Part shown: piece after piece, positions 19,801-63,657 of the stretch
How the letters are laid out: every line of letters begins with the position of its first letter
Numbering within the stretch: position 1 is the stretch's first letter
Source: Beroe forskalii
Lineage: Eukaryota; Ctenophora; Nuda; Beroida; Beroidae
Direction: 5' to 3'
DNA length: 64,000 nt
Assembly (NCBI GenBank): GCA_011033025.1
Contig: WFMF01000290.1
Location: forward strand, 161,153-225,152
Translations under genes and position numbers: made by a program
Notes under the pieces: model-generated
Told to the model about the DNA's origin: nothing
Database searches by the model: none
The model's input: the letters and a program-made list of their open reading frames with translations, nothing else

Positions 19801-22800
19801 GAAACATAGTCAAAGTACGTGAATTACGATGTTTCTGTTATGTTTATGCGTCGTTATGATTTGTGCTATTTTAAGATCAATTTAACCATTTGTATGCATT
19901 ATGTAACAACAGTTGATATTTCTGGGAAAATAAAATCAAAATTGCAACTTCCGAGCAACATCCTGTTTCCGAAGAACGCTTTGTGAATTTGCAGGCCCGT
20001 TGGGGCTGCAGCTCACTCGGTGATCTAACTTCACCAAAACGGCATCGTAAGAAATGACGTTTCATCTGATAAAGGACTTCAGAGGAGACACAGCCAAGAG
20101 CATGATTTGGGGGTCCAGGCTTATCCGTAATGGCACTTGAGCATATCATAGATGGAAACTACAAGTGAATTGTTTCCATGCTGCAGATGGATGTGTCTTC
20201 GCCACAAACTGTCGCTGCACAAAGCTCCAACTTTATTTTAATTCTGTTAAACTGGCTGATGCCAGTCTTGTCATATCAGCTCTCTTCAGGTACATCAACC
20301 GTGCGAAACAGGCTTCCCACGGGCAAAACAGACTGATGTAGATTCCAAGAGACACTTTGCCTCGCACGGTCTCGTGTTACAAGCATACTGATAACTTATA
20401 ACACACGTTTCCCAGTGGTAAATTTTTGAATTTTGATGTTTCAGGACGGAAGGTTGCAGATTGGGGACCATATCCTCCAAGTTAACGACATCAAGTGCAG
20501 CAACATGGGGCACACTGATACGAAGGAGATTATCATCCCTGAGCTAAGGGGCTCCACTCCCAAGGTTCCTAGTTCTAGATTGTTAATTGACATTTTGCTT
20601 CCGTGTGAATATCCCTATAGATTTCAGCCGTGAACTTCCGATAGGATAGGATCTTTTCCTCTCCCTGATAACACTTGCTACCAGGGTTTTATCTCTCCCC
20701 TGATAAAACTTGCTACCGTGGTTTATCTGCAGGTGAAGCTGCTAGTGCAGCACGTATCCAAGCAACGCAAGGTGTCGCCTAGCAACGCCCCCACAACAGA
20801 CACGCCCTGCCCCAAGAAGTCGGGCCCGGGGGCCACCCTGCCCTCTCAGAAGCACGGGGACCCGGCCCCCGACCTCCTGCTGCCGGAGGCCCTGTGGTCT
20901 GACGCCCACCCCACCGCACCCATCGCTTACAGATTCGGAACTGTCATCCTCCCCGCCCCCTCCTGGATTGGGTAGGGTTTCTTCCATAATGTGCTACCCA
21001 TAATGTGTGTGCACATGGATAGATCGATAGAAATACTGTTCTTTGGGCAGATATTCTATGGAAAGTGAATTACGTGCACTAGTAAAATTTTTCGATCCCT
21101 TCATCGATCGATGGCTGTGCACAAATATGGGCGACGCTGCTGTGCAACAACGTGCAATATAAGACATGTCATTGACTTGTCATTGAAATTAATTATGCTG
21201 TTAGTGAAATAAAAATAGAAAATATACATACAAAGCCTAGTTACAGATCAGTAACGTTAAACTTAAAAACATAGGGTATACATAATTAATAATAATGTAT
21301 ATCAGATCTGTCCCCAATTTATTGTCCTCTAGTATAAGAGGCCCAAGATTTGCCTACTTAATCACGGAAAAATCCTTCAGGTGGAGCAAAGAGAAGCATT
21401 TCGTAACTCTCACTCGTCTAGCAAACGGATTTGGCTTCAGCATCATGGACTACAAGGTTTGACAACGAGCAAGAGACCTGCACTGCATAACTTGAATGAC
21501 AAACTAGCGCCAGTATTCAGCATCGTATGGATGTTTTCAACATCTTACAAAAGATTAGATATACGCCATCGCGCCGCAAATATATTGATTAAAACGCTAC
21601 ATTCTCCAGGAGCCTAACGACAAGTCAGAAGAGAGGGGCTCAGTGCTGATAATCCGGCAGATCACTCCGTTTGGGGCTGCTGACCTGGAGGGCCACTTAG
21701 TTCTGGGGGAGCGCATCATGGCAGTCAATGGGGAGGTGATCACTGACCACACCATCGAGGACATCGTCAGGATGATCAAGCCCTGCCCCGTCCTACAGCT
21801 GAAGGTGTGGTTCAGGGTTTGTTTGACTTCATTGCAGTTTTATCTATACCACTCCTATAGCATTGCTTCTGGTTTGCTGGTTTCCAATGTCTATAAACAT
21901 TAAACCCCCGGTGGATACCGAAAAATGGCTAATAAGGGTTTAACTTTCGAGGGGTTTATGGGGTTCCCCCTGTCCATACACCACCTCTAATAACACCCTC
22001 CCTTCCTCAGATGTGCCGTCCTGTGGAGAGTGCTTCCTGGAGAAGTCTGCTGAGCACTAAGATCTCTGCTATTCCCCTCGTCAGCGGGCCCCGCAAAGTA
22101 ACCCCTCAGGTGAGTGGAAGAGGTGATGCATTGTGCAGAAAGAAGGCTCGATAAGAGAGAAGAAGGCCAACGGTCTGATCTGTGATAAGACTATTGATCC
22201 TTTGGTGAAGTTTAACTTTGTTGATTCCTTCGTTTCCATTCCTCCTTTATCTCCTATTTCAGGATGCTAGCAGTACCTCTACTCTGAACGTTGCTCGAGC
22301 AGAGGACAGAGAACAGATCTCCAATCCAAACATGGAATACCCTGCAGCACGTTACCATAGCAACGCCGATAAGACCGACATGAGCCGTTACTATGGAGAG
22401 GACTATCACTACCCACCCCACATGGGAAGCTCAGGGGACACCATCAGAAGGCACCACGAGGACGAGCCATGTCAGGGGGAATCAGGTGTTGGGGGCAGCA
22501 ACCCCTCCCTCAGCTCACAGACTCAAACTAAAGCAGGGGTTGGGGGCAGCAACCCCTCCCTCAGCTCACGCAATCAGGGTGAAGCAGGGGTTGGGGGCAG
22601 TTACCCCTCTCTCAGCTCACGGACTCAGGGGGGAGCAGGGGTTGGGGGCAGCAACCCCTCCCTCAGCTCACGGAACTCCGAACATTCGGAAGGGGGCAGC
22701 TACCGTCCGTGGACTGGTCTGGGTTCGCAGGAGTCAGTTGATGGGCAGGGCAGTGCGATGACGTCACAGCACTACAGAGATGACAGTGCGATGACCTCAC

Positions 22801-25800
22801 AGAGCTACAGAGATGAGAATGTGACGACGTCACAGCACTACAGAGATGAGAATGTGATGACGTCACAGCACTACAGAGATGAGAATTTGATGACGTCACA
22901 GCATTACAGAGATGAGAGTGTGGACACAGCGGCTAGCTACAGGAGTTACGGGAGTCATGGTAACCATAGCAACCGTAGCGTGGGAAGTACGGGTAGCTAC
23001 AATGACCGTTCAGCCGAGGGGAGCGTTACTACCTCCATCAGAAGGAGATACCAGCCCTCCTACACGGGGGAGGGTAGAGCACTCTCCAGAGGGGACACTG
23101 TAGAGACCCCTCGACCTTACAGGGCCAATCCGCCTGAGTGGGGTTCTGGAGTGGAAGGAAGGAGTGGAGTGGAGGGAAGAGGGAGTGGAGTGGACGGAAG
23201 AGGGAGCGGAATGGACGGAAGGGGGAGTGGTGATATCCACCGGGCTCAGGCTCACTCCTCCGGGTACACTGACATTGCCTACCCGGGCGGGTACTACTCT
23301 AGAACTGCAAGTGGTGACATGATACGAAGCAGTGGGGAGATGATGAGAGCTAACAGTGGTGGGTTAGACAGGGCTAACAAAGTGAGTGAAGACGGTTCTG
23401 ACGGATACAGCAGAAGTGAGATGAGATCGCCCCGGCACCAGAGTGAGCGGAGAGCCACGACCCGGGCTCCTAGAGAGGATAAAGTGATGATGAGATCCCC
23501 TCAACCCCCTGCTGGGGTAAGATCCCCTCAACCCCCTGCTGGGGTAAGATCCCCTCAACCGCCTGCTGGGGTCAGATCCCCCTCAGCATCCCCTGCTGGG
23601 GTCAGATCCCCTCAGTTTAGGAGGAACTTCTACACACGACCTAGCGTTCCCTACGCTAACCAGGCAGCCAAAGGAGCAGAACCTTACTCTGCCTTCAGCA
23701 ACCCTAAAACAAGTGTGAGTAGCTGCTTTTTCATGCTGTCAGAATTAATGATCCTAGCAGTCAGCCAGTCAAGGGCGTAGCTGGACTTTTGGAGACTAAA
23801 AAATCCGGCGAGTTACATTCATAACCTGCTGAATTTTTTTGTGCTTGACTCAAAATTCTCATATCGTCTGTCCAAAAAGGGGAGGCATCCGCCTGTGTTG
23901 CCTTCTCCTGGCTACGCCCCTGCGAGAAGTTACTTACTATGATCTTAAAATGACCAAGATTTTTTTTTTCATAAAATTAGAAAAAAAAATTGTATCTGAC
24001 AGTAATTTGACATCAATCCTGATCCTTGACACCAACCACAATCCTTAACATCACTCTACACAATCCTTGACACCACTCTTTATCCTTGACATCAAACCTT
24101 AGCCCTGACACCACTCCAAAATCTTTGACACCACTCCTTATCCTTATAATCACTCTTTATCCTTGGCACCACTCCACAATTCTTGACACCACTCCCCAAT
24201 TCTTGGCATCACTCCATAATCCTTGACATCACTCTACAACCCTTGAGACCACTCATTATCCATAAAACCACTCTTTATTCTTGACATCAAACCTTATCCC
24301 TGACACCACTCCAAAATCCTTGACATCACTCTTTATCCTTGACGTCACTCTTTATCTTTGACACCACTCCAAACTCCTTGACATCAATCTTTATCCTTGA
24401 CACCACTCATCATGCTTGACACCACTCCACAATTCTTGGCACAATTCCACAGTCCTCAACACCACTCTACAATTCTTGACATCACTCCATATCCTTGACA
24501 TCACTCTACAATCCTTGACACCACTCCACAATCCTTGACATCACTCCTTAACCTTGACACCACTCCACAATCCTTGACATCACTCTTTATCCTGATTTCA
24601 AACCTTATCCCCGACACCACTCCAAAATCCTTGACACCACTACAAAATCCTTGACATCTCTCTTTATCCTCGACATCACTCCTTATCCTTGACATCACTA
24701 TTTATCCTTTACACCACTCCACAATCCTTGAAACCAAACCTTATCCCTGGCACCACTCTAAAATCCTTGACACCACTCTAAACTCCTGACATCACTTTTT
24801 ATCCTTGACATCACTCCTTATCTTGACATCACTCTTTATCCTTGACACCACTCCAAACTTCTTGGCATCAATCTATATCTTTGACACCACTCATTAAACT
24901 TGACACCACTCCACAATTCTTCACACAATTCCACAGTCCTCGACACCACTCTAAAATCCTTTGCATCACTTCTTATCCTTGACATCACTCTACAATCCTT
25001 GACGCCACTCATAATTCTTGACACCACTCCTTATCCTTGACACCTCTCCACAATTCTTGACACAATTACACAGTCCTCAACACCACTCCACAATCCTTGA
25101 CATCACTCTACAATCCTTGACACTACTCCACAATCCTTGACATCACTCTATAATCCTTGACACCACTCTTTATCTTGATTTCAAACCTTATTCCCGACAC
25201 CACTCCAAAATCCTTGACGCCAATCCAAATTCCTTGACATCTCTCTTTATCCTCGACATCACTCCTTATCCTTGACATCACTCTCTACCCTTGACACCAC
25301 TCCAAACTCCTTGACATCACTCTTTATCCTTGACATCACTCCTTATCCTTGACATCACTTTACAATACTTGACACAACTCCACAATCCTTGACATCACTC
25401 TATAATCCTTGACACCACTATTTATCCTTCACATAAAACCTTATCCCCGACACCATTCCAAAATCCTTGACACCACTCCAAACTCCTTGATATCACTCTT
25501 TATCCTCGAAATGACTCTTTGTCCTTGACATTACTCTTCATCCTTTACACCACTGCACAATCCTTGACATCACTCTTCAATCCTTGACACCACTCTTTAT
25601 CCTTGACATCACTCCTGATCCTTGACACCACTCCACAATCCTTGACATCACTCTTCAATCCTTGACACCACCCTTTATCCTTGACATCACTCCTGATCCT
25701 TGACATCACTCTACAACCCTTGACACCACTCATTATCCCTGACACCACTCCATAATCCTTGACACCAACTCAAAATCCTTGACACCACTCCAAACTCCTT

Positions 25801-28800
25801 GACATCACTCTTTATCCTTGACATCACTCCTTATCTTGACACCACTCCACAGTCCTTGATATCACTCCACAGTCCTTGAAATCACTCTACAATCTTTGAC
25901 GCCACTCATTATCCTTGTCACCACTCCACAGTCCTTGACATCACTCTACAATCCTTGACACCACTGCAAAATCCTTGACACCGCTCTAAACTCCTTGACA
26001 TCACTCTGTATCCTTGACATCAGTCTACAATCCTTGCCACCACTCCACAATCCTTGACATCACTCCTTATCCTTGACATCACTCTACAATCCTTGACACC
26101 ACTCATAATCCTTGACACCACTCCTTAGTCCTTATCCTTGACACCACTCCACAGTCCTTGACATCACTTTACAATCCTTAACATCACACACTATCCTTGA
26201 CACCACTCCACAATTCTTGACACAATTCCACAGTCTTCAACGCCACTCCACAATCCTTGACATCACTCTATAATCCTTGACACCACTATTTATCCTGATT
26301 TCAAACCTTATCCCCGACACCACTTCAAAATCCTTGAAACCACTCCAAACTCCTTGACATCTCTCTTTATCCTCGACATCACTCCTTATCCTTGACATCA
26401 CTCTTTATCCTTGACACCACTCAACAATCCTTGACATCACTTTTTATCCTTGACACCACTCCACAATCCTTGACACCACTCATTATCCTTGACACCACTC
26501 TTTATCCTTGATATCAAACATTATCCCTGAGTCTGACACCAGTAACATTGTTCAATACTCCAAATTGTAACGCATATGTGTGTAGCAAGAGACTGTTCGA
26601 TAACAGGAGGGCTCGAAAAAGCCGTGCAAAGTTGTGTTTTCGATGGAATCTGTAAGAAGTTGACGCGCGCACAAATAAATCCGCGCGTTTTTTCCGAACC
26701 CTCCTGCTTTCGGGCTTAGTGTGCACATATATGCTCAATAGCTCTACAACTATTCTCTTCCGAATAGCTTTCACACATTTTGATGGCGCGCAATCATTTC
26801 CATGTTCTCTAGAACTAGAGGTTTTTAGAGATGTAAGAAAAGGGAGTTGATGGTAAATCACAGCACTAAAGTTTACATAATAAAACTAAAAACGCCTCGC
26901 TTCGCCTCACTTTTCCTCCTACTTAGAATATTCATTTCACCGCACTGCTTATAAATTCCTAATGGACTCCATAAAATATTTAGTTGAAAGCGAATATTAA
27001 ATTCCCGCTTACATGCCGCAATCAAAAAAGGATGGAATTAAAACCCAGCTATAAGTTTTTAATTAGAAAATTATTATGAAATTTAAGCTCAAAACTCTCA
27101 AACTATTTTTTGAAGAGAGGGTGTAAACTTTGAAGACTGATTACCGAAGATATAGGTCACGTAAATATATAAGAGCATAATGCGGATCAAAAACTGTAAA
27201 TTTCTAGCGTAAGGTGTTAAATTAACCAAAATTAAGTCTAAATTAATACCAAAATTAACCAAAAATCAATACCTAAGCGAATTCATATATCGCATACTAT
27301 AAAACATTCCAGCCCTCCAGCAGCCTCCAGCTCCCCCAGCAATTATCTGTCGATTGATTAAAATCCCAGAACACCGTTGAGTACTTGGTTTTGTTGACGA
27401 CTTTGAGGGTGCCGCATTTGTCTGGAGTTTTGACATTGTCATCTGTCCGAATCACTGTTCCAGTCCTAGTTTGGACCATTTTAGTGTCGCAACTGACCTC
27501 AACCGACTCACAATGGGTATAGTTTCCAAAGCAATTTGCTTTTGTAGGAGTATTTTCCGGACAAATCCGTAGCAAGCCCTTCACTTCGCATCCTATTGAC
27601 TCATACTCATAGAATGATCCATTGTGGTAAATCTTATTAGGTAGTTTGAACTTAAGACACTCGTTTCCTCCTTTTAGTTTTATCCCCGCCTGGAAAACTT
27701 CGTAGATTGAAAATATGTCCTTTTGCATCAGAATGGGAATTTTTAAATGATATGAGTATTGAATGTTTCATCTATGTCTGTCCCAGCCCCTAACATTCTT
27801 CCTACTTTCCTAGTTTGTATATCAATGTTGGATGTCTTTGCAGCATTGTTTTTGTAGTAAACTATTATTTGACACCAAGTTATCTAGCTTTTCTTTAGGT
27901 AAGTAGGTAAAAAAAGCAGGGGATATTCTGCCTTCTCCAGCTCCTGATATTATGTCTTTGAATATCATGTCCACGTAACTTTTCCACTCAATGTATCTCC
28001 GATTGTTATTTATTGCTGCGATAGTAGCAGAAACATCACATTCTAGCTGTTCTAACTTCCCAGATATTCTTTCCTCAAGGACTTTATATATTTTGACTGG
28101 AGCTGCACCGTTATCTCCGCTTCGTCGGTCTCTTCCCCACTGGGTCAGGATTGTTCTCTGCTCCCCGTTGTCAGGTTGCTTTCGCTCTGCCCGCGTAGGT
28201 TCGAATCCTACAGTTCGCACCACTGTTCGCGAATTTCTCGGCCGAGTGGTTTTAGGCAAATTGCGGAGAGGTTTTATAGAGCGATGAAAGAAAAAGGAGT
28301 AGATGGTAAATCACAGCACTAAATTTTAAATTATAAAGCTACTTACTAAAACGCCTCGCTTCGCCTCACTTTTCCTCCTGCTTAGAATATTTATTTCTCC
28401 CACCGCACTACTTAGTACTTATAAATTCCTAATGGACTCCATAAAATATTTACCTTATTACATGAAATTAAGGTATCACTTAATTTAGGTGATCGAGTTG
28501 AATTTCACCTTAATTAAGTGCTCGTAAATTTTTACCAGCCTTATTTTAAATACACCTACCTTAATCTTTAAGTAATTTTATTTTTGACAACAATGTGACG
28601 CCATACTGGGAAAAACTACCTGAATGATTTGATGGTGTACGCTTATACTTATCCCAGCTGGATATAACGAGGTTATCCAGTCTGAACATTGAAAACGAAT
28701 CATAGTTAAAATTGTTTATTAATGAAGGGAAGGGTGTTTGCAGTTTTGCAGGTTTGAGAATACCACAGCTATAACTCCAAAAAAGCTTTCTTGACGAATT

Positions 28801-49400: not shown

Positions 49401-52400
49401 AAACCCGGATTACGGTTAGGACTAGGGTGTGGGTTGATTCGGGTTGATTCGCTTGTTATTGTTGATTCGCTCGTTTCAGGATAATTCACATGTTCCGCTT
49501 GTTTCGGCGTGATTTAACCAGTTCTTACTTCCTCTTTTGTAGTACTAACGCGATGAAATAAACCCTTCATTTATTCCCAGATATCTATTGAATCTGAACG
49601 TGTATCTTAGAAGGATGACAACAGCTCGGACTGAAGGTAATCCACTTGATATCTTTGTACGGAAAGTAGCTGGGTCAATTGAATACAATTCGAGGGATTG
49701 CAGTGAATGTCATGATATTGCTTCCGGATCACTCGTAGCGATACAGGTATGGTGCACAGTATCATTTGTTCTCGGAGTGACTGGTAATTGTTTCCTACTA
49801 CAAGCTATAATTCGTCATCAAGCCTTGAAAATGGACGAAATGTCTGTTTGGATAATAGAAAACCTGGCTGTATACGACATTCTCAACTGTTTCCTGGTGA
49901 TCCTACCAACAACCATCGTTTACTACAACTACCCATCCTGGTTGCTGGGCGTGGAATTCTGTATCGGCCAAGCGACATTTCTGTATTTTTTCATGGCTGG
50001 GAACATCATGTCAATTGTATTGCTGTCCCTCAATAAGATGTACCGGTGCCTGTACCCCCTGCACACCCTGTCTCCCTCCCTAAAACAGAAGGCTATTGTT
50101 TGCCTCGGAACCGTGGGTTGGAGTCTCCTGACAGTAGTGTATCAAGTCTTCACACTCCTCAGCTGGGACTGGAATGTCGAGTACTACCCTGTTGTAGGAG
50201 CGTGCGATGTGGCGGCCCCCGCCGGGGACAACCCCAACCGACAACTCACTATTATCGCTTGCGATGTTATTTTTGTTGGGTTGCCAATTTTCATACTGAT
50301 TATCAGTAACGTTGTTTTGATTGGAATAGCTGTCAAGAAATCCAACAGTGGTGTCAAGAAGAAGAACATCGTGATCGTGGTCCTCGTCACAGGATTCTTC
50401 CTGTTATCAACCTTGCTGTTCTTCGTGGAACAGTGCTATATGAATGGCAGCAGCGAGCGTTTCGTGGCAGCTGCTACGTGTTTGGGATTTTTAATGAACT
50501 GGATAAACCCCTTCATATACCTGGCAACGAACAAAGTGTACCGCAATCACTCTACACTCTGGGTTACTGAAAGACGTAGTAGTATGAAGATGCAACTGTC
50601 CAAGGCTTGGAGTGGTTTGAGTGCAATACAGAGGGCAAATAGTTTGGAAAGGTCTGACAGGAGCGTGCAACAAGGAGTCACTGGACAGTGAACATAGAGA
50701 ATGATTTGAATATATTTCGGAATTTGAATTTTTACTACCAAACGGACATTCAGCATTGACAATTGGTTGAGTGTTTAACCAAATTTTTGCTTCGAAGTTT
50801 GAATAAAATAAGCAAAATATTGTGTGACTGTGAAAACGTGTCAAATGAGTCGAATAAAACTGTTCTGTCGTTTCAACTCTTCTCGGAAGTTTTGATTTTG
50901 CAACCCATTCAAGTAAATGACTATTTCAGGCTACTGTACTCACCCTTTTACCATCGAACAGTTATCTTTGGCAGACTAAGAGATAAAGCCACTTCTTTGT
51001 GTAAATTGAGGCTTTAGCGACCAAAATTAAAAGTGAAATTCTGCGCTCGACGACCCACAAGAGGTATTCTGTCACTGGGCCCATCGTACGAAACTTAACA
51101 GGAATTCATCAGATGATAAGTATAATGAAAATGCTCCTCAGTCCACAAACCTTGTCAATAATTCTGAAATTGGAGAGTATATCGTTGATATCCCTCTCGA
51201 AGACAACGTAGTGTATCATGTCTTGAGGACCGAACTTTGGCTCCTCCCCCTCATCGTCGAAGTGCAGACATTCCACCTTAACGTTTATCTTCACTAGAAC
51301 CTGCAGAGTAATGGGTATTACGAGGCTGATATTGAACTTGCACAGGGGTTGTAGCGGGTATAACGAGGGTTGATATAGAACCTGCAGAGGGGTTGTAGCG
51401 GGTATAACGAGGGTTGATATAGAACCTGCACAGGGGTTGTAGCGGGTATAACGAGGGTTGATATAGAACCTGCACAGGGGTTGTAGTGGGTATAACGAGG
51501 GCTGATATAGAACCTGCACAGGGGTTGTAGTGGGTATAACGAGGGTTGATATAGAACCTGCAGAGGGGTTGTAGTGGGTATAACGAGGGCTGATATAGAA
51601 CCTGCAGAGGGGTTGTAATGGGTATTACGTGAGTTGATATAGAACCTGCACAGGGGTTGTAGTGGGTAATACAGTGGGCGCAGTTAACAGTGCGCGCAGT
51701 TTATACGTTTAAAGGGCGCGCAGTTTAATTTTCAAAGAATTTCTGTCGAAATCTACACATTCTTATAAGTGGATGCGTGTGCACCCATAACATATGGGTA
51801 ACACTCCTAGACGTTACCTGCACAAACTTCTGCTCGCCAATAGGTAGCTCCATGTGAGACAGCACCTTGGGATTCTCGTTGATTGCCAAGGAACCTCACA
51901 TCGAACCAGGAGCTGATGACCCCCCGCTCCTCCTTGGAACACGTCTCCCGGATCTCCAGGACCCTCTTCTCTGCCATGTGATCCAGCAGAACGTTCCACC
52001 GCTGCTCTCTGATCAGCTCGAAGTGCTTCAAGTACACCTGGCGGGAGAGGGGATCACTTGGTGGGATGGTACTACATTGGTAGTCAGTCTGGCTCGTGAT
52101 CGAATGATCCCGGGTTCGATTCCATGTCATTCCCACAGCGCTAAGGGTGAGCTAAGGGGCATAGTCATGGGAGGGGAGGGATGACCGGATGACATGGGGT
52201 GAGAGAGGAGGCGTGAGACTGGATGTGAGAATCTAGGGAGGTGGTGGAAGGTGCAACATCATTTCCAATTTATGGTCGTTGAGGCTGTGACATTATCACG
52301 TGACCTATTCACGTGATAGCAGCCCCGCAGGTGGCAGGTAACGTGGTATCTACGAAGCGAAAGAAAAGTGTTTTGAGATTGTGTCTTGTAATATTATCGA

Positions 52401-55400
52401 GTGTAACAACTTTATTTCCTCACCATGGGTTAAAACTAATGATGATTCAGGGAACGAATTCAGGAAATATCAAGTAGGAAATCTCACTTTTCAGTTTGGT
52501 TAAGATCATTGGTGTAGGATTGATGAATTAACGTAAATCAAATCATAGATAATTCATTAAAATAGTACCTGACGTTATCTTGACAATTTAAGAATCTCAG
52601 TTAGATAGCTTAGAGATTACTTTTGTCGAATTTTGTGCGAATATTCATCCTATGATACTGCTCTGGTGTATCTTCCTTCTCTCCAGAGTAAGTGTTTATC
52701 ACATATTTCTATAACAAGGCAAGAATTAGATAGGGGACACTAAACCAAGTACTAACTGAACGGGTTGAAAACTTTGATTCCCCTGACCTCTTAAGCTCTT
52801 AGCACCATCTGTTCAAGCATAAACTTAGATTCAAATTCAAAACCTTGGCAAAATCTGATCTGGATGACACTTTGCTTACTTGACCTTTGGTTCACTTCCG
52901 AGCGTTGTAAGACTTGCCCAAAAGAAAAATGTAAATAATGGAATAAGACTTCTGGCTCAAGTCCCCGCCATTTGATATTCATATCACCATAGCAACTTCA
53001 GAATCAAAGTTTTAGCATTTAAATTCAAAGATTTCTCGCATCGGAACTCAGTAGTTACTCACTATTGTGCTTTTTGCAGGTCCAGGAGACACGTGAATAT
53101 AGATTTGTAGAACTGAAGATCGCGTATAACAGAGTGAGATGCCCCCACTGTGACATGAAAGCTAAAAACATTACGGTTTACGACGCAGGGAATAACACGG
53201 TAGCCTTCCTTCATGAAATGAACTTTACCAGAGATTCAAAAACCTTTCTTCTTGCTAAGGAAACAAACACTGAATTCTGGTGGCAAGTATGGAAGAAGGA
53301 AAAAAACTTCCCAGGTTACAAATTAACAATTGAAATATGTGTCATTTCCAATAACGAAATTAGGACAGACGTGTTCCAAATGAACAGGACGCATGAATAT
53401 TTTGCCAAAGATTGCTTCGATTTTTCAATGTATCGAAACAATCGATACAATACAAATCGATACAATAACAACCGATACAATAACAATCCCTGTGCAGAGG
53501 ATTTCCGAGTTTGTATGCATAATTCTGCATTGGTAGAACTGAATAACGCGTACCAAAGAGTGAGAGGCCCCCAGTGGGACACGAAAGCAAAAAACAAAAC
53601 GGTTCACAACGCAGCGAATAACACGTTGGCCTCCCTCGATGGAACGAACTTTACCAGACACACAAACACATCATATTCTAAACCTCTACTCGCATTTACT
53701 GTGAATACAACGACTGAAGTAAAATTGAGGATGCAAGTATGGAAAGAGAGAAACTACCTCCAAGGTTATGAATTAATAAAGGAAGTTGAGATAGGTGCCA
53801 TTTCCAAATGGGAAATTGAATACCAAATGGAATGGGCACTTGCACACGAGGCCGGATATCAAGATTTCATGATGCAACTGCCATATTATCGATACAATTA
53901 CTGTGCAGTAGATTTCCAAACTTGTGCAAAGTGTCCCGAGCACCGCTACCCTGCCGGCGTATGCAATGTGACTTGTATAGCAGAAGAAGGGAGGTTCAGC
54001 TGCAGTGTAGACGGAGTTAAGATCTGTTCTGCAAACAGGCAAGGGGAACACTGCGACACGTGTGCCGCTGGGTACTTTGGAAAGGACTGCACGATCAGAT
54101 GTATAGAAACAGAGGATTCCGATTACACTTGCAACGAGACAGGAGAAAAGCAGTGTCGTAATGGCGAACCGTATAGCGATGATGGGTGTAGGAGTGCAGG
54201 AGTGAATGGGGCAGGAGTAGGGACTCTGGTAGTTCTCTTCGCTGCAGTGAGCGTCGCTGCTGCTGTCTTTGTATACTTGAGAAGGAGGCGGGAGAGACAG
54301 AAGGAGGAGAGGGCCACTAGAGCGGCAGAGGCAAGGAGAACTAAACAAAGAAGAGGGCCGAAGAAGACAGGACACCAAAACAGAAACCGTCCCAGGGTCA
54401 AACACGACACATCTGCAGCTCCTGGCGCTAGGCAAGCGCCGTCTGCTTACGATCGGTTACGCCCCTCGGGCGCTGTGCCGGCTGGGGACAACGCGTATTC
54501 GTATGTTCGGTTTGCAGAACCACCACGTGGTATAAACAACTCAAAAGTGAAGTGCAAAACCGAACAATCAAAAAGGAGTCGCATTGAAATGGAGCAAGTT
54601 TACTCTGACAAACTCGTGATCGAATACGATAAAAATGAAGATGAAAAGAAATTGAAGAGTTATGAAGAATCACTAGAAATTAAGTACGTTAAACTTGATA
54701 TGCACAAGTATAAACTGCACAACTTATACTGTAAGATGATCCCTGTGACTCAAGTTGAGATATCTGACGAGACTTACGCCACGCTGTCTCGAGGGACAGG
54801 ATTGTCAGTGGAACAGGGAGTAGAGTTATGTCAGTCAGAGGAAAGATCTGGTGAAATAGTAGAAGATACGTACTCTCATTTGGGAGCACGCACCCTACTC
54901 AAAGCAAAGAGTCCGAGCCCTTCACATCGTTCAAGTGGGGTAGAAGAAGAGAATAGCTCTAAGTACACCGTGATCCCAAGCGATAAGAAGGAGGATGATA
55001 CCAGACAGGGGGATCACGAAATGGCAGAACAGATACGAGCTAATCTTGATCAAGATCACGAAAAGGCAGAACAGATACACGCTAATCTTGATCAAGATCA
55101 CGAAAAGGCAGAACAGATATACGCTAATCTTGATCAGGGTCACGAAAAGGCAGAACAGATATACGCCAATCTTGATCAGGGTCACGAAAAGGCAGAACAG
55201 GCGAACGCTAATCTTGATCAGGGTCACGAAAAGGCAGAACAGATATACGCTAATCTTGATCAAGATCACGAAAAGGCAGAACAGATATACGCCAATCTTG
55301 ATCAAGATCACGAAATGGCAGAAGAGATACACGCTAATCTTTATGATCAAGATAACAGTGAAGAACCAGAACAAATTCACATTAATTTCGATCAAGAAAA

Positions 55401-57864
55401 TGACGAAGATGAGACTTATGCTACAGTTGAATTGAAGAGTACAACAGGTGATGGGAAAAAGCCGCAAGTAAAATTTCTGGAATCTGACCCGCCAGAAGAT
55501 CAAAAGAGGGGACTGTACACAGTAGTGAAGATCTTAGAACCTAGAAGTCCCTAAAAGTACCGGGTAAAAGATGGGAGATACGCGGAAATGGAGCAAGACG
55601 ATTAATAAGACTGGTATTCGCTTGGTGCTTTTCTGAGAAGGACCTAAATCAACAACAGTACACTGAACTTTAAACTGTTATTTTTTGGTTATGAGTGTTT
55701 TAAATTCGGGGAACGTCTTTTTGTTTGTTTAATAGTTATCCAACATACCTATATTAATTTCGATTTCCTCATAATGCATATTACATTCAATTCAAAACTT
55801 GGCCGTATTATCACATTCGTCGCAATAGCAATGGTCAGTACTGAGCCCTCAGTTCGACTCCTTGTGCAACATGTCGCACAGCAAGGATCTCAGCCATAAG
55901 TACCAGAACGGAAGTTAAACCTAATATCGCGCATTAGTAATCCGCCGGCTACGTCATCTTTTGTAGCGCGCAGCAGTGCTTGGTGACGTCACAGGCCAGC
56001 GGATAACTAATGATAATACACGAAGCTAAGACTTGTGCCGGGTTGGGTACTCACTTCTTGGAGGTGAGCTGCAAGTGACTTGTTCCTCAGGAACCTATCT
56101 GACACTCCATGGTCGAACCCCTTGTTCTTCAAACTACGGATCTTCGTGGTGCCAGCACTTTTACCCTGGGGTAGGTCAATGTAGGTTACAAGTGCGCAGA
56201 CACCTCATTTATTAGCATTTATCAAAAAGTAAGGAGTTAATGGAGGGAGTGTCAGTGTCCGATTTGTCCTACCTATGTCTACGTCCTCGTCCATTTTTAG
56301 TTTTTTGATTTCCGGACAAAGCGGACCATGACACCCCCTCCCGTTATAATTTAAAAGGTTTTATTTGAGGCAATAAGCTCTTTGAAGATAGTTAATAGTA
56401 CGTACTACGTTTTTGAATTGCGAATGTTATATGTGAACTGTAAATGTATGAATATAATATAAATCAATGTTTAAGTTTTTCTTTCGCCCATAAAAAAGGC
56501 AAGCCCTTGCGAGGGTTTTCAATCCAGGATTTTAAATCTTTTTAATAAGATGTTAATAAGATGTTTTTAATAAGATGTTATAAAAATATGGGATCTCGTA
56601 CTCTCATATTTCGAAAGTCTACTCGGCTGATAATATTCTGGTATACCTTTACAAGTGACTGATGAGCCACATGCAACTTATGAGCAGTCAGTCGGTAGAA
56701 TGTAACCCAGAGGGTCCTATACCTGCATGAAGTATATCCTGAAGAACTCGGAGATGCCGGTCCTGATACCCTCGTTCTTAAGCAGGTAAGGAATGTCAAG
56801 GGGGGTCTTGAGAGAGAGTTTGTTGAGGACCATGCCCGTGGTGGTCCGGGTGTTGCCCCCGGGGAACTTACTCTCAGAGTACTCCGACATAGCCTTCTCC
56901 TGGGGGGAGGGGAGAAACACAATGTGGGGAATTCATCATCCTCTGCAAGAGGCTGAAGGTGCAACAATACAGCAATGAAAGTGGTTCAGGGATGAATTGA
57001 ACTATAAAAAACTATCTGTCAATTCTGCAAAAATGGTTATATATTTTTGCAAACAATAACACTACAATCACTCAAACCTCTCGGATGTAGTTGAATGGGT
57101 CTAGTCCCATCAAACTGAGGGGGTACTGTTTGATTTGGCGGACGCTCATGGCCTGGTCGATAGCTCCCTGGAGTCGGTCCGGCAACTCGGCCAGATAACG
57201 CTCCTGAAGCCCATCAATGAACTCCTGCACCTTTGGTACAAAGGAGAGATCTCTGAATTAACCCATAAAGCCATAAGGTCCTGTTCATAGTACCGCAAGT
57301 AAATAATCCACATCAGCACATTGTAGTAATATGAACTGCTCATGAAGAAGAGAGAAGTCCGTAAATGGGTTGGAATGTGCTATGACAGGGGCAGTTTGTA
57401 CTTTGTACCCTACACATTGCACAACACACAAAGTTAAGCCACACAAACTGCAGTTTGAACTGTCACTCTAACTGTGAATCAAAACCATCCACATCAACAC
57501 ATTAAACCGATCTTTCACGCTTCATAAATTCCTATCGAAGTATTGAGAGGTAAAGTGCAACCCATTATAGAAATCTCTGACGTTTTCCATCGATGTCTAT
57601 GGCACATAGACCCTTGCCAGATCGGGCAACATGTATTTTTTTGCATGTCTTAACCAGATACATCCCTCGAGAAGTATCCAAAATCAAACCCCACAGGCGC
57701 GGGTCCACTGAACTCCCTACCTATCTCATCACTAACCTTAGGCTGTTTGAGGGTCCTGAGGACAGTCTCCTCGTCGTATCGCAGCGGACTCGTCTCCAGG
57801 CTCAGGTACTTCGCTTCCCGCTCCTCAACTCCAGCGTACAGCTTATCTACCAGGTCTCTGTGAG
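43382..57864 (-). CDS. mL45/Tim44-like domain protein, 5'-partial
   Basis: Exons read on the minus strand: 57864-57737, 57224-57078, 56899-56723, 52037-51818, 51300-51151 and possibly a last one 43477-43382 (TAA). All junctions are phase 0 if one surplus base near 51890 is discounted. Coding reaches about 300 residues and the N-terminus is missing. The C-terminal part resembles the Tim44-like fold of mitochondrial ribosomal protein mL45 (MRPL45): a W and a VLSHMELP strand, then VLVKINVKVECLHFDDEG and DMIHYVVFERD, matching the family's EYVVFEK block. mL45 sits at the large-subunit exit tunnel and anchors mitoribosomes to the inner membrane. The upstream helical exons are less typical, so another Tim44-like protein is possible. 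Two + strand genes are nested in its introns. Confidence 0.55.
43478..43901. other. Spacer, no gene seen
   Basis: Short tandem AACRTAACAAAGCATTATTA units at 43480-43560; otherwise nothing. Confidence 0.45.
43902..44690 (-). mobile_element. Helitron-like element, second copy
   Basis: The same hairpin and CTAG at 43902-43925, and the same body motifs to about 44640. The base after CTAG on the minus strand is A, not T. The minus frame 44435-44809 overlaps the conserved body and may be a coding relic, but I recognise no domain. Confidence 0.45.
44691..45978. repeat. Further fragments of the same repeat family
   Basis: AAGCAACGAAATCAAGACAG and TTTAATCTGCACGTTCACAT at 45603-45670; a hairpin plus CTAG end at 45747-45770 (AGGCCCTTTGGGCCT). 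No gene. Confidence 0.5.
45979..49313. repeat. Region between 75-bp inverted repeats
   Basis: Left arm 45979-46055 (AATTAATCAGTGCAATTAAC, GTTAATTGACACGATTAATG) matches the complement of 49240-49313. Inside: a GACCTTCGGTC hairpin at 46689-46713, a direct repeat (46808-46900 with 47980-48070, GCACCAG..ACCGTTCG) and a 60-bp-arm hairpin at 48745-48882. No transposase frame seen. Confidence 0.6.
48745..48882. repeat. Hairpin with about 60-bp arms
   Basis: AAGCCTATTTTCGCTTAAG...CATCAGAGCCTCTATTATAAG and complement, centre near 48808, with a few mismatches near the outer ends. Confidence 0.9.
49325..49520. repeat. Inverted repeat upstream of the GPCR
   Basis: ACAAGCGAATTAACCCGAAT...ACCCG is mirrored by GGGTTGATTCGGGTTGATTC, GCTTGTT, and AAGCGGAAC by GTTCCGCTTG. 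Confidence 0.75.
49615..50691 (+). CDS. Class A-like G-protein-coupled receptor, 358 residues
   Basis: A single open exon from ATG 49615 to TGA; in-frame sequence continues upstream to a possible acceptor at 49580, so a 5' exon may exist. Seven hydrophobic spans are visible at about 40-66, 75-101, 108-138, 150-172, 203-230, 241-266 and 276-300. TM1 has GN in GVTGN, TM2 has LAVYD (LAxxD), and TM7 has NPFIY (NPxxY). TM3 begins after EFC, and ECL2 holds a second Cys (GACDV), the usual disulfide pair. DRY is replaced by NKM, and TM6 has GFFLLST instead of CWxP. A basic, Ser-rich tail follows. The ligand is unknown. The gene lies antisense in a long intron of the mL45-like gene, if that gene's last exon is right. 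Confidence 0.85.
   Translation: MTTARTEGNPLDIFVRKVAGSIEYNSRDCSECHDIASGSLVAIQVWCTVSFVLGVTGNCFLLQAIIRHQALKMDEMSVWIIENLAVYDILNCFLVILPTTIVYYNYPSWLLGVEFCIGQATFLYFFMAGNIMSIVLLSLNKMYRCLYPLHTLSPSLKQKAIVCLGTVGWSLLTVVYQVFTLLSWDWNVEYYPVVGACDVAAPAGDNPNRQLTIIACDVIFVGLPIFILIISNVVLIGIAVKKSNSGVKKKNIVIVVLVTGFFLLSTLLFFVEQCYMNGSSERFVAAATCLGFLMNWINPFIYLATNKVYRNHSTLWVTERRSSMKMQLSKAWSGLSAIQRANSLERSDRSVQQGVTGQ
50692..51150. other. 3' flank of the GPCR, no feature seen
   Basis: AATAAAATAAGC at 50802 and GAATAAAAC at 50854 are possible poly(A) signals. Confidence 0.4.
51301..51680 (-). repeat. 44-bp copies of an mL45-like exon acceptor
   Basis: On the minus strand each unit contains CTGCAGGTTCTA or CTGTGCAGGTTCTA, the same bases that form the acceptor and first codons of the exon 51300-51151, then TATCAACCCTCGTTATACCC. 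About eight units, period 44. Confidence 0.92.
52058..52250 (+). repeat. tRNA-derived SINE-like sequence
   Basis: GGGATGGTACTACATTGGTA...CCCGGGTTCGATTCC has A-box- and B-box-like parts at tRNA spacing, but the acceptor stem is poor, so it is not a functional tRNA. A non-tRNA tail (GGGTGAGCTAAGGGGCATAG) follows. It lies directly upstream, on the minus strand, of the mL45-like exon acceptor. Confidence 0.5.
52652..55554 (+). CDS. DSL-domain single-pass membrane protein with YxxL-repeat tail
   Basis: Exon 52652-52687 encodes a signal peptide MILLWCIFLLSR (donor GTAAGT); exon 53080-55554 follows in phase 0 (acceptor TTTTTGCAG), total about 836 residues. Ectodomain: two tandem modules (each with VELxxAYxRVR, then a WxVWK or MQVWK strand), similar in layout to the N-terminal C2-like domain of Notch ligands, joined by a NRYNNN repeat. 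Residues 301-336 have Cys spacing C-x3-C-x8-C-x7-C-x8-C, starting YPAGVCNVTC and ending NRQGEHC, as in DSL domains; a further Cys-rich stretch follows. TM about 391-414, then RRRRER. The tail of 420 residues holds YDRL, YVKL, YCKM, YATL, YSHL, YTVI, YATV and YTVV plus eight 14-residue repeats with YANL in four. Nested antisense in the mL45-like gene. Confidence 0.82.
55010..55345 (+). repeat. 42-bp coding minisatellite in the DSL-protein tail
   Basis: Eight 42-base units encode DHEKAEQIYANLDQ. The key codon is Tyr in four units and Arg, His, Asn or His in the others. The period is a multiple of three, so unit gain or loss keeps the frame. Confidence 0.95.
55555..56722. other. Intron of the mL45-like gene
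   Basis: A weak B-box-like AGTTCGACTCC at 55851. TAAAATCTTTTTAATAAGATG repeats at 56533-56580. No other feature. Confidence 0.5.
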
Positions 57865-60969: not shown

Positions 60970-62298
60970 ATGAAATTCTCCTATATCATCCTACTGTTAA
61001 CACTCCTTCCCGCTGTTGGGGCCAACATTGACACTCAGGATGGTATGTGGTTTGCAATGCCAAAACATAACTAAGTGCAAACTTTTAAAGGAATCAGATA
61101 TCTTTATTGGAGTGCAAAGTCCGTTTTAAAACACAACAAGAATTGCGCCTGCGCCCTGCCGGCGCATTTCTCTTCGTGCGTTGCTCCCTTAGTATGCAGG
61201 CGCATTATTTCCCTATCATATGTGCTTGATTTAACGTGAGCATGCACGGAGGCGAAGATCGGTCACGGATTTCTCCCCGTTTATAGAGATTTCTCCCCCA
61301 TGTTTGGAGATCTCTCCCCCACTCGGGCACTTTTCAGAATTAACAGTACGGATAAAGGTAGTACACACAAATTCTCCCACAATCCTCCAAAACACGATCT
61401 CTGCTAACCCTCTCATTTGCCTTTTTGTAAAAAAGAAAGGCGATTGAAGAGGGAAAAATCTTTGAATTTAGTATGATATTAAAGTAAAATTAAACCTTGA
61501 TGCATCATGCATGCAAAGAACACTCATGTTATCTTCCAACAGAAGAGCCCTGCGGACTATTATGGGAGGGTGGCTGTGGGCCCCGGTATGGGGAAGTTAA
61601 AATCAGTGACAACCCTGGCACCTCAGTAGCAGACTGCAGGGCACAGTGCAAACAAGTTACCGACTGCGAAGTGTTTTTGTTACGCATCTCTAATTCTGAA
61701 TGCTACTTCTATCGCAAAGAAGCACTAGATGTTTGTGTGAAGAATAGTGTCAATGTTGGAGAATTACAAGCATATTCAGTCAACGAGTGTATCGGAGATA
61801 CTTGTGGACTATTATGGGAGGGTGGCTGTGGCGGGGCCCGCTCTGGGGAAGCTAAAATCCGTTTCAACCCTGGCACCTCAGTAGCAGACTGCAGGGCACA
61901 GTGCAAACAAGTTACTGACTGCGAAGTCTTTTTCATACAAATCTCTGATTTTCACTGCGGCTTCTACCGCAAAGAAGCACTAGATGTTTGTGTGAGGAAT
62001 AGTGACAATGTTGGAGAATTAGAAGCATATTCAGTCAACGAGTGTATCGGAGATACTTGTGGACTATTGTGGGAGGGTGGCTGTGGGCCCCGGTATGGGG
62101 AAGTTATAATCAGTCTCAACCCTGGCACCTCAGTAGCAGACTGCAGGGCACAGTGCAAACAAGTTACTGACTGCGAAGTGTTTTTCATAGGCATCCCTGA
62201 TTTTCACTGCGGCTTCTACCGCAAAGAAGCACTAGATGTTTGTGATAAAAGCGTACATGTTGGATTATTCCTAGCATATTCAGTCAACGAGTGTGCAG
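60970..62298 (+). CDS. Secreted protein with three PAN/apple-like repeats, 3'-partial
   Basis: Exon 60970-61042 encodes a signal peptide MKFSYIILLLTLLPAVGA and leaves one base; exon 61543-62298 takes two and again leaves one before GTATGT. It encodes three repeats of about 83 residues, each CGLLWEGGCG, then NPGTSVADCRAQCKQVTDCE, a FYRKEALDVC segment and SVNEC. Eight Cys per repeat with the DCRAQC/DCxxF core fit PAN/apple modules, which bind proteins or glycans. Symmetrical phase 1 introns are typical of shuffled extracellular modules. The repeats are nearly identical in DNA, including the silent sites, so they arose recently or are homogenised. No later exon was found before the window ends. 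Confidence 0.78.
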
Positions 62299-63657
62299 GT
62301 ATGTCTTTATCTTATCACTTCAAATCTCGTTATGTAGGATTAAACAGGATTAAACAAAAATAGTCCACTAACACTTCTGTTTGGACGGAATATACATGAC
62401 ATTGAATCTGAAATGTATGGTTATAATATCATAATCTGATGATATCTTGATTGGTTATCTGGCTTGTCTGATAAAGTTATCTGATCGGACGTTTATTCTC
62501 ACAAGGATTTCGTGCCTTATACTCTGAATTATCCCCTTAAATCTTTATTTCTAGTTGCCAGAAAATACGGTCGTGTACCAAAACTTGGGTTAGAGGGCAC
62601 CCCAAATCTTTGGTCCGGTATTTTTCTGAACTTAAAGCAACAAATAACAACAAAAATAACTTATTCTATTAACTCCTTATCGTTCTAAGTTTCTGACTGA
62701 CACAGCCAGCTAGCAACCTATTTAGCGTAGCTATTAGCATATAGTAGGTAAAACTGAATTGATTTAATAATAATTATCATAAGTTTGTAAATTATTGTCA
62801 TGACCTACTCCCTCGCCATTTCTGGAGGCACATATTATTTAATTAAATTTTGAAAATATATCACTAACTCATTAAAGCTGAAACTCCAGCGAAGATAGTA
62901 CAAAGCTTTATGAAATGGGGAACAAAGTAACAAAGTATTTCAGGTAATTTTGCTACTATTTAATCCATCTACCTATTGTGTAAAATTGTGTTATAAACAA
63001 TACCAACTATCAAGGGTCTGATATCATAAAGCTAAATTTGTTTCAAAACAGAAAACAGGAAGACACAATAAGAATAAGTCACGAGTAATCCCCTCAGGAC
63101 ACGGGGTGAAATGCTGCTTTGGGAGAACTTGGGATCAGATATTTAAGCTTTCAAGGAAAATGTTGGCACGGCACAACCAAGATCTTAAAGATACTCTAGA
63201 AATCTTGATTACTCAGTGCAATGTTGATGGACAGTAGGCCAAAGGTAGTTTGAGATCAAACTTTTACCTTTTTACATGCATTGATATAGTTGTACATCGA
63301 AGGTACTACCGATTATATAACGTTTTAGGTATTGATTTTAGGTTTTGATTATGGTACATTGAACTGATTAGATTTATTATTTATTCCTGCCAGTTCCCAT
63401 GTACAAACTGAAATTTAGGTGCCTTCCCAGTTTCTTTGTTTCATGATGGAGAACTGTTAGATTTTTATCACAGATTTATTAGTTTGCAAGTTTGTAATGG
63501 GATATTTTATGCATGCATTATTTTATGCATGCATGTATAAAAGTATAAAGTAGAATAAGGATTCAAAAATTTCAATTTCCAAAAAAAGATTTTTGGATGT
63601 ATTTTGGTTTTTTAACCTTGTATTGCTTTTAAATGATTCCTGAAAGTAAACCGGGTT
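62299..63657. other. Downstream intron or spacer, no feature seen
   Basis: AT-rich. No exon with the phase needed to continue the PAN gene was found. Confidence 0.45.

Follow-up and report, generated by a model that had tools for sequence, protein, structure and literature searches.

In a 64,000-nucleotide stretch of the genome of the ctenophore Beroe forskalii (contig WFMF01000290.1, positions 161,153 to 225,152, our C348:161153-225152, of the 216-Mb assembly GCA_011033025.1; hereafter the window) we identified a gene whose predicted 836-residue protein has two N-terminal modules, two DSL domains, one transmembrane helix and a 422-residue cytoplasmic tail rich in YxxPhi motifs (Phi being L, I, V or M). 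Our favoured reading, which we hold with some reserve, is that this gene probably belongs to a lineage-specific family of single-pass, paired, immunoreceptor-like proteins with a co-opted Notch-ligand head. The evidence comes from the DSL domains and their many relatives in the same genome, from tyrosine motifs well in excess of chance, and from a relative in which a similar ectodomain sits on a different tail.

The probable receptor gene, its family and its head

The gene model and the features of its product are as follows:

52652..52687, plus strand: predicted exon 1, with the start codon and MILLWCIFLLSR, which resembles a signal peptide; top-ranked for hydrophobicity among the scanned candidates that have an in-phase donor
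52688..53079, plus strand: intron (predicted, phase 0), 392 bp, gtaagt ... ttttgcag
53080..55554, plus strand: exon 2, the remaining 824 amino acids and stop in a single open frame
53104..53499, plus strand: first N-terminal module (module 1), sharing 41-47% identity with module 2 and probably C2/MNNL-like
53500..53913, plus strand: N-terminal module 2, probably C2/MNNL-like, with the same identity to module 1 and a match at C211
53932..54054, plus strand: DSL domain 1, on 53914-54198, where Pfam DSL reports two stretches; its cysteine pattern aligning with that of DSL domain 2
54061..54189, plus strand: DSL domain 2, membrane-proximal, with the best Pfam DSL stretch (P0001 residues 328-362)
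54214..54282, plus strand: single transmembrane helix GVGTLVVLFAAVSVAAAVFVYL, hydropathy maximum 2.62, basic residues following
54286..55551, plus strand: cytoplasmic tail, 422 residues with 19 Tyr and 13 YxxPhi, a count reached by 0 of 10,000 shuffles
55012..55347, plus strand: eight 14-residue (42-bp) repeats with a EKAEQIYANLDQ core, Tyr kept in four

The frame comprises 843 open codons, for which the chance expectation is ~4.5e-24, and because it stays open over this length a pseudogene reading was ruled out. Scanning 2.4 kb upstream placed the exon 1 candidate at 52652-52687 at the top (hydrophobicity 3.05 versus 1.73 for the next; donor score 7.2), and its donor (aga/gtaagt, the slash marking the splice point) joins in phase 0 to the acceptor ttttgcag/GTCC at 53080. 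An original prediction, made from the letters of this stretch alone, had claimed a signal peptide and a single membrane pass, and both are retained here, the former as the hydrophobic product of the predicted exon 1 and the latter as the one helix between ectodomain and tail. A hydrophobic exon 1 candidate was found in 13 of the 16 members scanned by one script (window gene included; the scan had no shuffled control), with an in-frame acceptor before the N-terminal module in 12 of the 16, that of C636_126k not lying at a matching place. The donor-to-module distance was 175-613 bp in 11 of the 13 members with a candidate, again counting the window gene, and 1,204 and 1,533 bp in the remaining two.

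The N-terminal modules are tandem duplicates (tblastn E-value ~1e-15), as had been proposed, with a mutual ratio of nonsynonymous to synonymous substitution rates (dN/dS) of ~0.96 (bootstrap 0.53-1.74). The 95-residue cysteine-rich part that follows (53914-54198) matched Pfam DSL at 39.1 bits (E-value 8.8e-10) in two stretches, and we therefore read it as two DSL domains, which align with one another by their cysteines; the original prediction was thus right about a DSL-type cysteine pattern, but had counted one domain where there are two. With the same model the window gene scored 28.6 bits in our genome scan, over the 24.2 cut-off, the ectodomain 25.3 bits and the full window protein 22.5 bits, under that cut-off. 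No EGF family reached its cut-off in the window protein or in its cysteine-rich stretch, the EMI domain was matched neither in the window protein nor in four paralogues, and the window protein matched neither a kinase domain nor Pfam MNNL, the latter being one of the models that the original prediction had proposed as a check. A PDB search with the window ectodomain returned no match, and the prokaryote and viral collections held no relative. Eph-receptor and laminin matches of the cysteine-rich stretch in PDB were weak (E-values 0.27-9) and were not used.

Within the genome itself the window ectodomain had 127 matches, the one at C211 spanning query residues 172-371 with an E-value of 4.1e-22. 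The DSL model had at least 103 matches, all over cut-off, on 34 contigs and in ~48 loci (starts less than 1.2 kb apart being joined); this is a lower bound, as 150 of 189 candidates were scored, and 37 of the 48 loci were fetched. Paralogues, for which the original prediction had proposed a search, are present as a DSL family, one member of which has clear arrays of the immunoreceptor tyrosine-based activation motif (ITAM), described below. Four DSL loci lie on the 31-kb contig C998. Apart from C569, most of the loci that were read combine a C2/MNNL-like module with between one and five DSLs, and in many a transmembrane helix is present as well. Scanned whole, four paralogues scored 69.5-120.7 bits with Pfam DSL and three of them also exceeded the cut-off for EGF_laminin. 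At C569 there are two DSL matches in short frames (70-75 amino acids), one of them read, which may be separate, conventional, intron-split ligands. A tree built from the membrane-proximal regions of 22 members unites four genes with long tails (support 86/84), but the branch of the window gene is too long for its position to be assigned. The size of the family bears on a statement in PMC4810162 (PubMed Central identifiers, here and below, stand for those sections of a paper that treat the subject) that Mnemiopsis leidyi lacks diagnostic Delta domains, P. bachei having Delta.

To relate the head to known structures, a family profile of 20 paralogous module-plus-DSL stretches was searched against PDB. 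Twelve of its 14 matches were Notch ligands (Jagged-2, Jagged-1, Serrate, Delta, DLL1 and DLL4; E-values 6.2e-9 to 0.0072) and two were unrelated (0.91 and 1.3), leaving the Notch ligands as the only significant matches. Five of the 12 (two to Jagged-2, two to Jagged-1 and one to Delta) align from within the module through the DSL, and seven over the DSL only or nearly so. The Jagged region aligned ahead of the DSL is the second half of the C2/MNNL domain. Compared with the module profile, this half-domain of Jagged-2 scored 11.9 bits, which 0 of 3,000 shuffles equalled (2,708 of them gave a score). In addition, the window modules used as a profile matched the paralogues' module by hhalign (probability 81.7, E-value 1.1e-5, 71 columns). 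Based on the extension of the profile alignment into the pre-DSL region, the Jagged-2 half-domain score and this window-module match, the family module is probably, if not provably, a diverged C2/MNNL domain. Among the same 20 members Pfam DSL was found in 18 and C2, weakly, in three. The proposal of a Notch-ligand-like ectodomain joined to a tyrosine tail is partly supported, by the DSL, by the family profile's matches to Jagged and Delta, by the kinship of the window modules with the family module and by the YxxPhi excess. Searching the genome for MNNL produced a single match, below threshold, at C331; we set it aside as an artefact because the stretch is rich in repeats and contains stops.

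Tyrosine motifs in the tails

The 13 YxxPhi of the window tail compare with 2.93 expected. Twelve are YxxL/I/V (YxxLIV below, which excludes M), namely eight outside the repeat and four YANL, and the other is YCKM; the tail had been described as having about 420 residues, at least eight YxxL/I/V, four YANL and a YCKM, and our counts agree. Outside the repeat, 9 of 14 Tyr are in YxxPhi (2.23 expected; 1 of 10,000 shuffles), and a hydrophobic residue, found at +3 in these nine, occurred in 2 to 5 of the 14 at the seven other offsets tested. The ITAM consensus is [DE]xxYxx[LIV]x6-8Yxx[LIV]. Gaps of 10 residues separate YVKL from YCKM and the partners in two YANL pairs, and there are three YxxLIV pairs at a spacing of 6-12 (4 of 5,000 shuffles), so that the ITAM-like arrangement first claimed survives as spacing but not as the strict motif. 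Within the repeat, the A, N and L that follow the Tyr position are invariant in the eight units.

We then compared tails across the family. A cysteine-pattern filter gave 39 frames in the fetched loci, of which 22 were measured together with the window gene; 17 were left out as having no in-frame transmembrane helix, or one near the frame end (C211, C158, C355 and C291_146k; the uncounted 20-residue tail of C355 has one YKHL), and of four fetched loci read outside the filter (C1047, C381, C969 and C691) the first three were added, to make 26 tails in all. Five of the 26 are YxxPhi-rich, those of the window gene, C998_23k, C998_27k, C998_30k and C636_126k, with 12, 20, 6, 4 and 3 YxxLIV versus 2.7, 3.6, 1.2, 0.8 and 0.9 expected, respectively, counts that 0, 0, 0, 21 and 183 of 5,000 shuffles reached. 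The other 21 tails hold, in 1,405 residues and 42 Tyr, five YxxLIV, and 18 of them have none; allowing M at +3 adds a YELM and a YEIM in two of the 21. C998_30k is near a contig end and its fetched frame is without a module. C1047 (L010:3241-4818, minus strand) has a tail that is rich in acidic residues and contains YEDA, YEDF, YVNV and YENI, and the short tails of L039, L044, L045 and L019 keep two Tyr contexts, one SEQYEN-/EEYKN-like and one EHLYxD-like, that are mostly not YxxPhi, some fitting YxN.

The longest sister tail, that of C998_23k (L011:2152-5340, minus strand), has eight strict, overlapping ITAM matches with an 11-residue period (0 of 5,000 shuffles). Tyr and I/L are kept in all eight YADI and all eight YATL-type units, and the YADI cores have five extra synonymous and no extra amino-acid codon types versus five and 13 elsewhere in the repeat; as the changes in YADI are synonymous only, they suggest that selection keeps Y-A-D-I in this tail. 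Its last residues, NPIYLVIQ, form a site of the NPxY type, which Megf10 and CED-1 also have.

One could suppose that such tails are drifting, low-complexity repeats in which YxxPhi rose by repeat expansion, with no signalling. The 42-bp repeat does supply four of the 13 sites in the window tail while missing Tyr in half of its eight units, and a search with the C998_23k tail matched just two others in the family, both from C998 and at 35%. We nevertheless think drift very improbable, given that the excess in the window tail persists outside the repeat and that C998_23k preserves both of its motif types in every unit with synonymous changes only in YADI.

It is also conceivable that these are expanded, ordinary Notch ligands whose head still binds Notch, the YxxPhi sites serving in ligand endocytosis as AP-2 signals. 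YxxPhi is also the AP-2 mu2 sorting signal, the family profile is homologous to Jagged and Delta, EGF_laminin exceeds its cut-off in three of four paralogues, and the genome has Notch LNR repeats, two at C269 and two at C657. Set against this, the window protein has no EGF family at cut-off, conventional ligands may exist separately in the short frames of C569, YxxLIV is absent from most tails outside the YxxPhi-rich group, the C2-like module evolves fast (see below), and sorting needs neither acidic residues at -3 nor an ITAM period of 11 residues; we consider this explanation unlikely. To our knowledge, known DSL ligands have no such tyrosine-motif arrays. Like members of the family, Delta/Serrate/Jagged ligands have a module followed by DSL and a single transmembrane helix; the family differs in its tandem DSLs, its large multigene set and the YxxPhi arrays of its long tails, and no EGF family, such as follows the DSL in these ligands, reaches its cut-off in the window protein.

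Exchange of tails, a proposed mechanism and known systems

C580 is 71-95% identical to C998_27k in six of eight ectodomain windows (49 and 65% in the other two), but beginning with the membrane-proximal region and continuing to the tail end it is 82-92% identical to C172_154k, which has a short tail. It has a C998_27k-like ectodomain on a C172-like short tail, the one clear case of exchange, with signalling a prediction in either form. As in paired receptor families, similar ectodomains are thus found on YxxPhi-rich and on other tails, both in this case and in the division of five tails versus 21. Of 29 pairs whose dS was usable, 27 showed a higher dN/dS in the module than in the DSL, as did eight of nine non-overlapping pairs (p 0.02 one-sided, 0.04 two-sided), values that are not independent in related paralogues; these rates are compatible with an outermost module whose evolution is relaxed or diversifying and fall short of proving positive selection. 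Candidate partners for phosphorylated tails exist, as the genome has 35 SH2 matches, including a C824 frame with two SH2 domains most like those of PLC-gamma and SHP-1.

Besides the non-independence of these rates, several observations weigh against an immunoreceptor-like family with a Notch-ligand head. The C2/MNNL assignment is indirect: Pfam MNNL matched 0 of the 20 members, the C2-like module profile alone found no Notch ligand in PDB, the Jagged-1 half-domain scored weakly against the module profile (3.2 bits; 45 of 3,000 shuffles as good), and structure models were poor, with a predicted local distance difference test score of 36 for module 2 plus the DSLs (single sequence) and 44 for module 2 with module 1, and were not used for a fold search. 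In the window tail there are 0 strict ITAMs, and among the 23 members formed by the window gene and the 22 frames from the filter C998_23k alone has any; no position of the window repeat varies more than that of the Tyr (R, H, Y, Y, N, Y, Y and H in the successive units), and the YxxPhi sites also fit AP-2 sorting signals. Enrichment in C998_30k and C636_126k is weak by the shuffle counts given above, and long and short tails do not separate cleanly, as that of C1047 has 233 residues and two YxxLIV (1,072 of 5,000 shuffles have as many) and that of C779_36k is longish, with 183 residues, and unremarkable, with two YxxLIV. C636_126k (L022:3115-5392, minus strand) may be a damaged gene or an assembly error, because its module/first-DSL part and its DSL/transmembrane/tail part overlap in different frames. 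The codon contrast in YADI (Fisher p 0.0075) comes from units of a tandem repeat, which are not independent. Finally, a Syk-family kinase was not established in the genome.

If the window gene does belong to such a receptor family, we would propose the following mechanism, whose steps (binding of a ligand, phosphorylation and recruitment of SH2 proteins) and whose role in immunity or self-recognition all go beyond the sequence and are inferred. The fast-evolving C2-like module would recognize a variable partner carried by another cell or by a microbe, with the DSL stack as a stalk or second contact. Clustering induced by ligand would lead a Src-type kinase to phosphorylate YxxL/I in the YxxPhi-rich tails, and the phosphorylated sites would recruit SH2 proteins, tandem-SH2 proteins at ITAM-spaced pairs and GRB2-type adaptors at YANL. 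Members without YxxPhi-rich tails might compete with the others, act as partners that depend on an adaptor, or serve as decoys, by analogy with the paired receptors of vertebrates. Two-way signalling, raised as a possibility in the original prediction, would further call for a partner and for phosphorylation of the tail. Much more tentatively, we speculate that ctenophores may achieve self/non-self or microbe recognition with partly clustered, recombining C2-DSL paired receptors, some with ITAM arrays and some with short tails, whose Notch-ligand head would have acquired immunoreceptor tyrosine signalling separately from the immunoglobulin (Ig), lectin and EGF heads of other systems. Were this true, so large a family in an animal from one of the deepest branches would show that recognition systems based on tyrosine motifs arise repeatedly on any adhesion fold available, and the family would be a concrete candidate receptor set for ctenophore immunity.

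Receptor families with ITAMs or the corresponding inhibitory motifs (ITIMs) are known on Ig, lectin or EGF-type heads, as is in part also apparent from PMC8092387 and PMC12065747. Among them, Megf10, Draper and CED-1 (PMC8092387) resemble the window protein in being single-pass with an ITAM or YxxL tail and differ in having an EMI and EGF-like ectodomain rather than C2-DSL. These proteins suggest an alternative, an engulfment or adhesion family of the Draper/MEGF10 type that carries another head and in which phosphotyrosine signalling would serve debris clearance or adhesion and not variable recognition. The ITAM tails of Megf10 and Draper (PMC8092387), the terminal NPIY of C998_23k and the EGF_laminin matches of the paralogues are in keeping with it; however, EMI went unmatched in all five proteins scanned for it, the main repeated unit is DSL, and multiplicity, exchange of ectodomains and tails and a fast C2-like module fit variable recognition better, so that we give engulfment little credence and retain paired, immunoreceptor-like recognition as the better account.

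Other systems share single features with this family. Botryllus fester co-receptors (FcoR; PMC12065747) are, like members of our family, invertebrate proteins with tyrosine motifs in the tail, there an ITIM, hemITAM or core YxxI/L/V, and have Ig and sushi ectodomains, not DSL; Hydractinia allorecognition candidates (PMC12065747) likewise have ITAM/ITIM tail motifs. Genes with DSL or tandem DSL and without EGF were reported, among the lophotrochozoans studied, from bivalves only (PMC8166818); they share with the family the tandem DSL without EGF and a lineage-specific expansion, but belong to another phylum, and the section describing them mentions no tyrosine tails. PMC4810162 reports from Capsaspora a receptor tyrosine kinase, called 'Delta-like', that contains two DSL domains and in which, as in the window protein, a DSL ectodomain is linked to tyrosine phosphorylation (in the window protein by motifs only); that receptor has its own kinase and tandem EGF repeats, whereas the window protein, which matched no kinase domain, has motifs in its tail. 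MNNL and DSL also occur in a choanoflagellate (PMC6040629). DSL, ITAM, Notch, Delta and tyrosine do not occur in the main text of a survey of ctenophore immune receptors (PMC11797021), and among the matches listed from Creative Commons-licensed PMC literature we recognized no DSL receptor with an ITAM tail.

Other features of the window and genome

In the genome's COX1, TGA is read as Trp and five of seven AGA/AGG codons fall where the best PDB chain has Arg. This is mitochondrial code 4, which excludes most bilaterians; a bivalve origin, to which tandem DSL without EGF might have pointed, was rejected on these Arg positions. With the bacterial code, ARAGORN detected no tRNA genes in the 2.8-kb COX1 locus. 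A glutamate-receptor fragment had its best PDB matches to the ML032222a ionotropic glutamate receptor (113 bits versus 89 for the next molecule), the ML prefix denoting genes of Mnemiopsis leidyi. By themselves these features make a ctenophore the probable source, a calcareous sponge being a more remote candidate.

Upstream of the receptor gene, 49549-50688 (plus strand) encodes a rhodopsin-type G-protein-coupled receptor in one open frame (7tm_1, 63.1 bits). The minus strand has a 707-amino-acid open frame at 17717-19837, in which an N-terminal stretch is hydrophobic and no Pfam family exceeds its cut-off, and at 24007-26511 there is a 20-bp satellite of ~128 copies, the GC skew being -0.71 in 24001-26000. 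In the open frame at 61494-62360 (plus strand) a PAN/apple unit of 255 bp is repeated in tandem about three times with 88% matches, the product of recent amplification within the frame.

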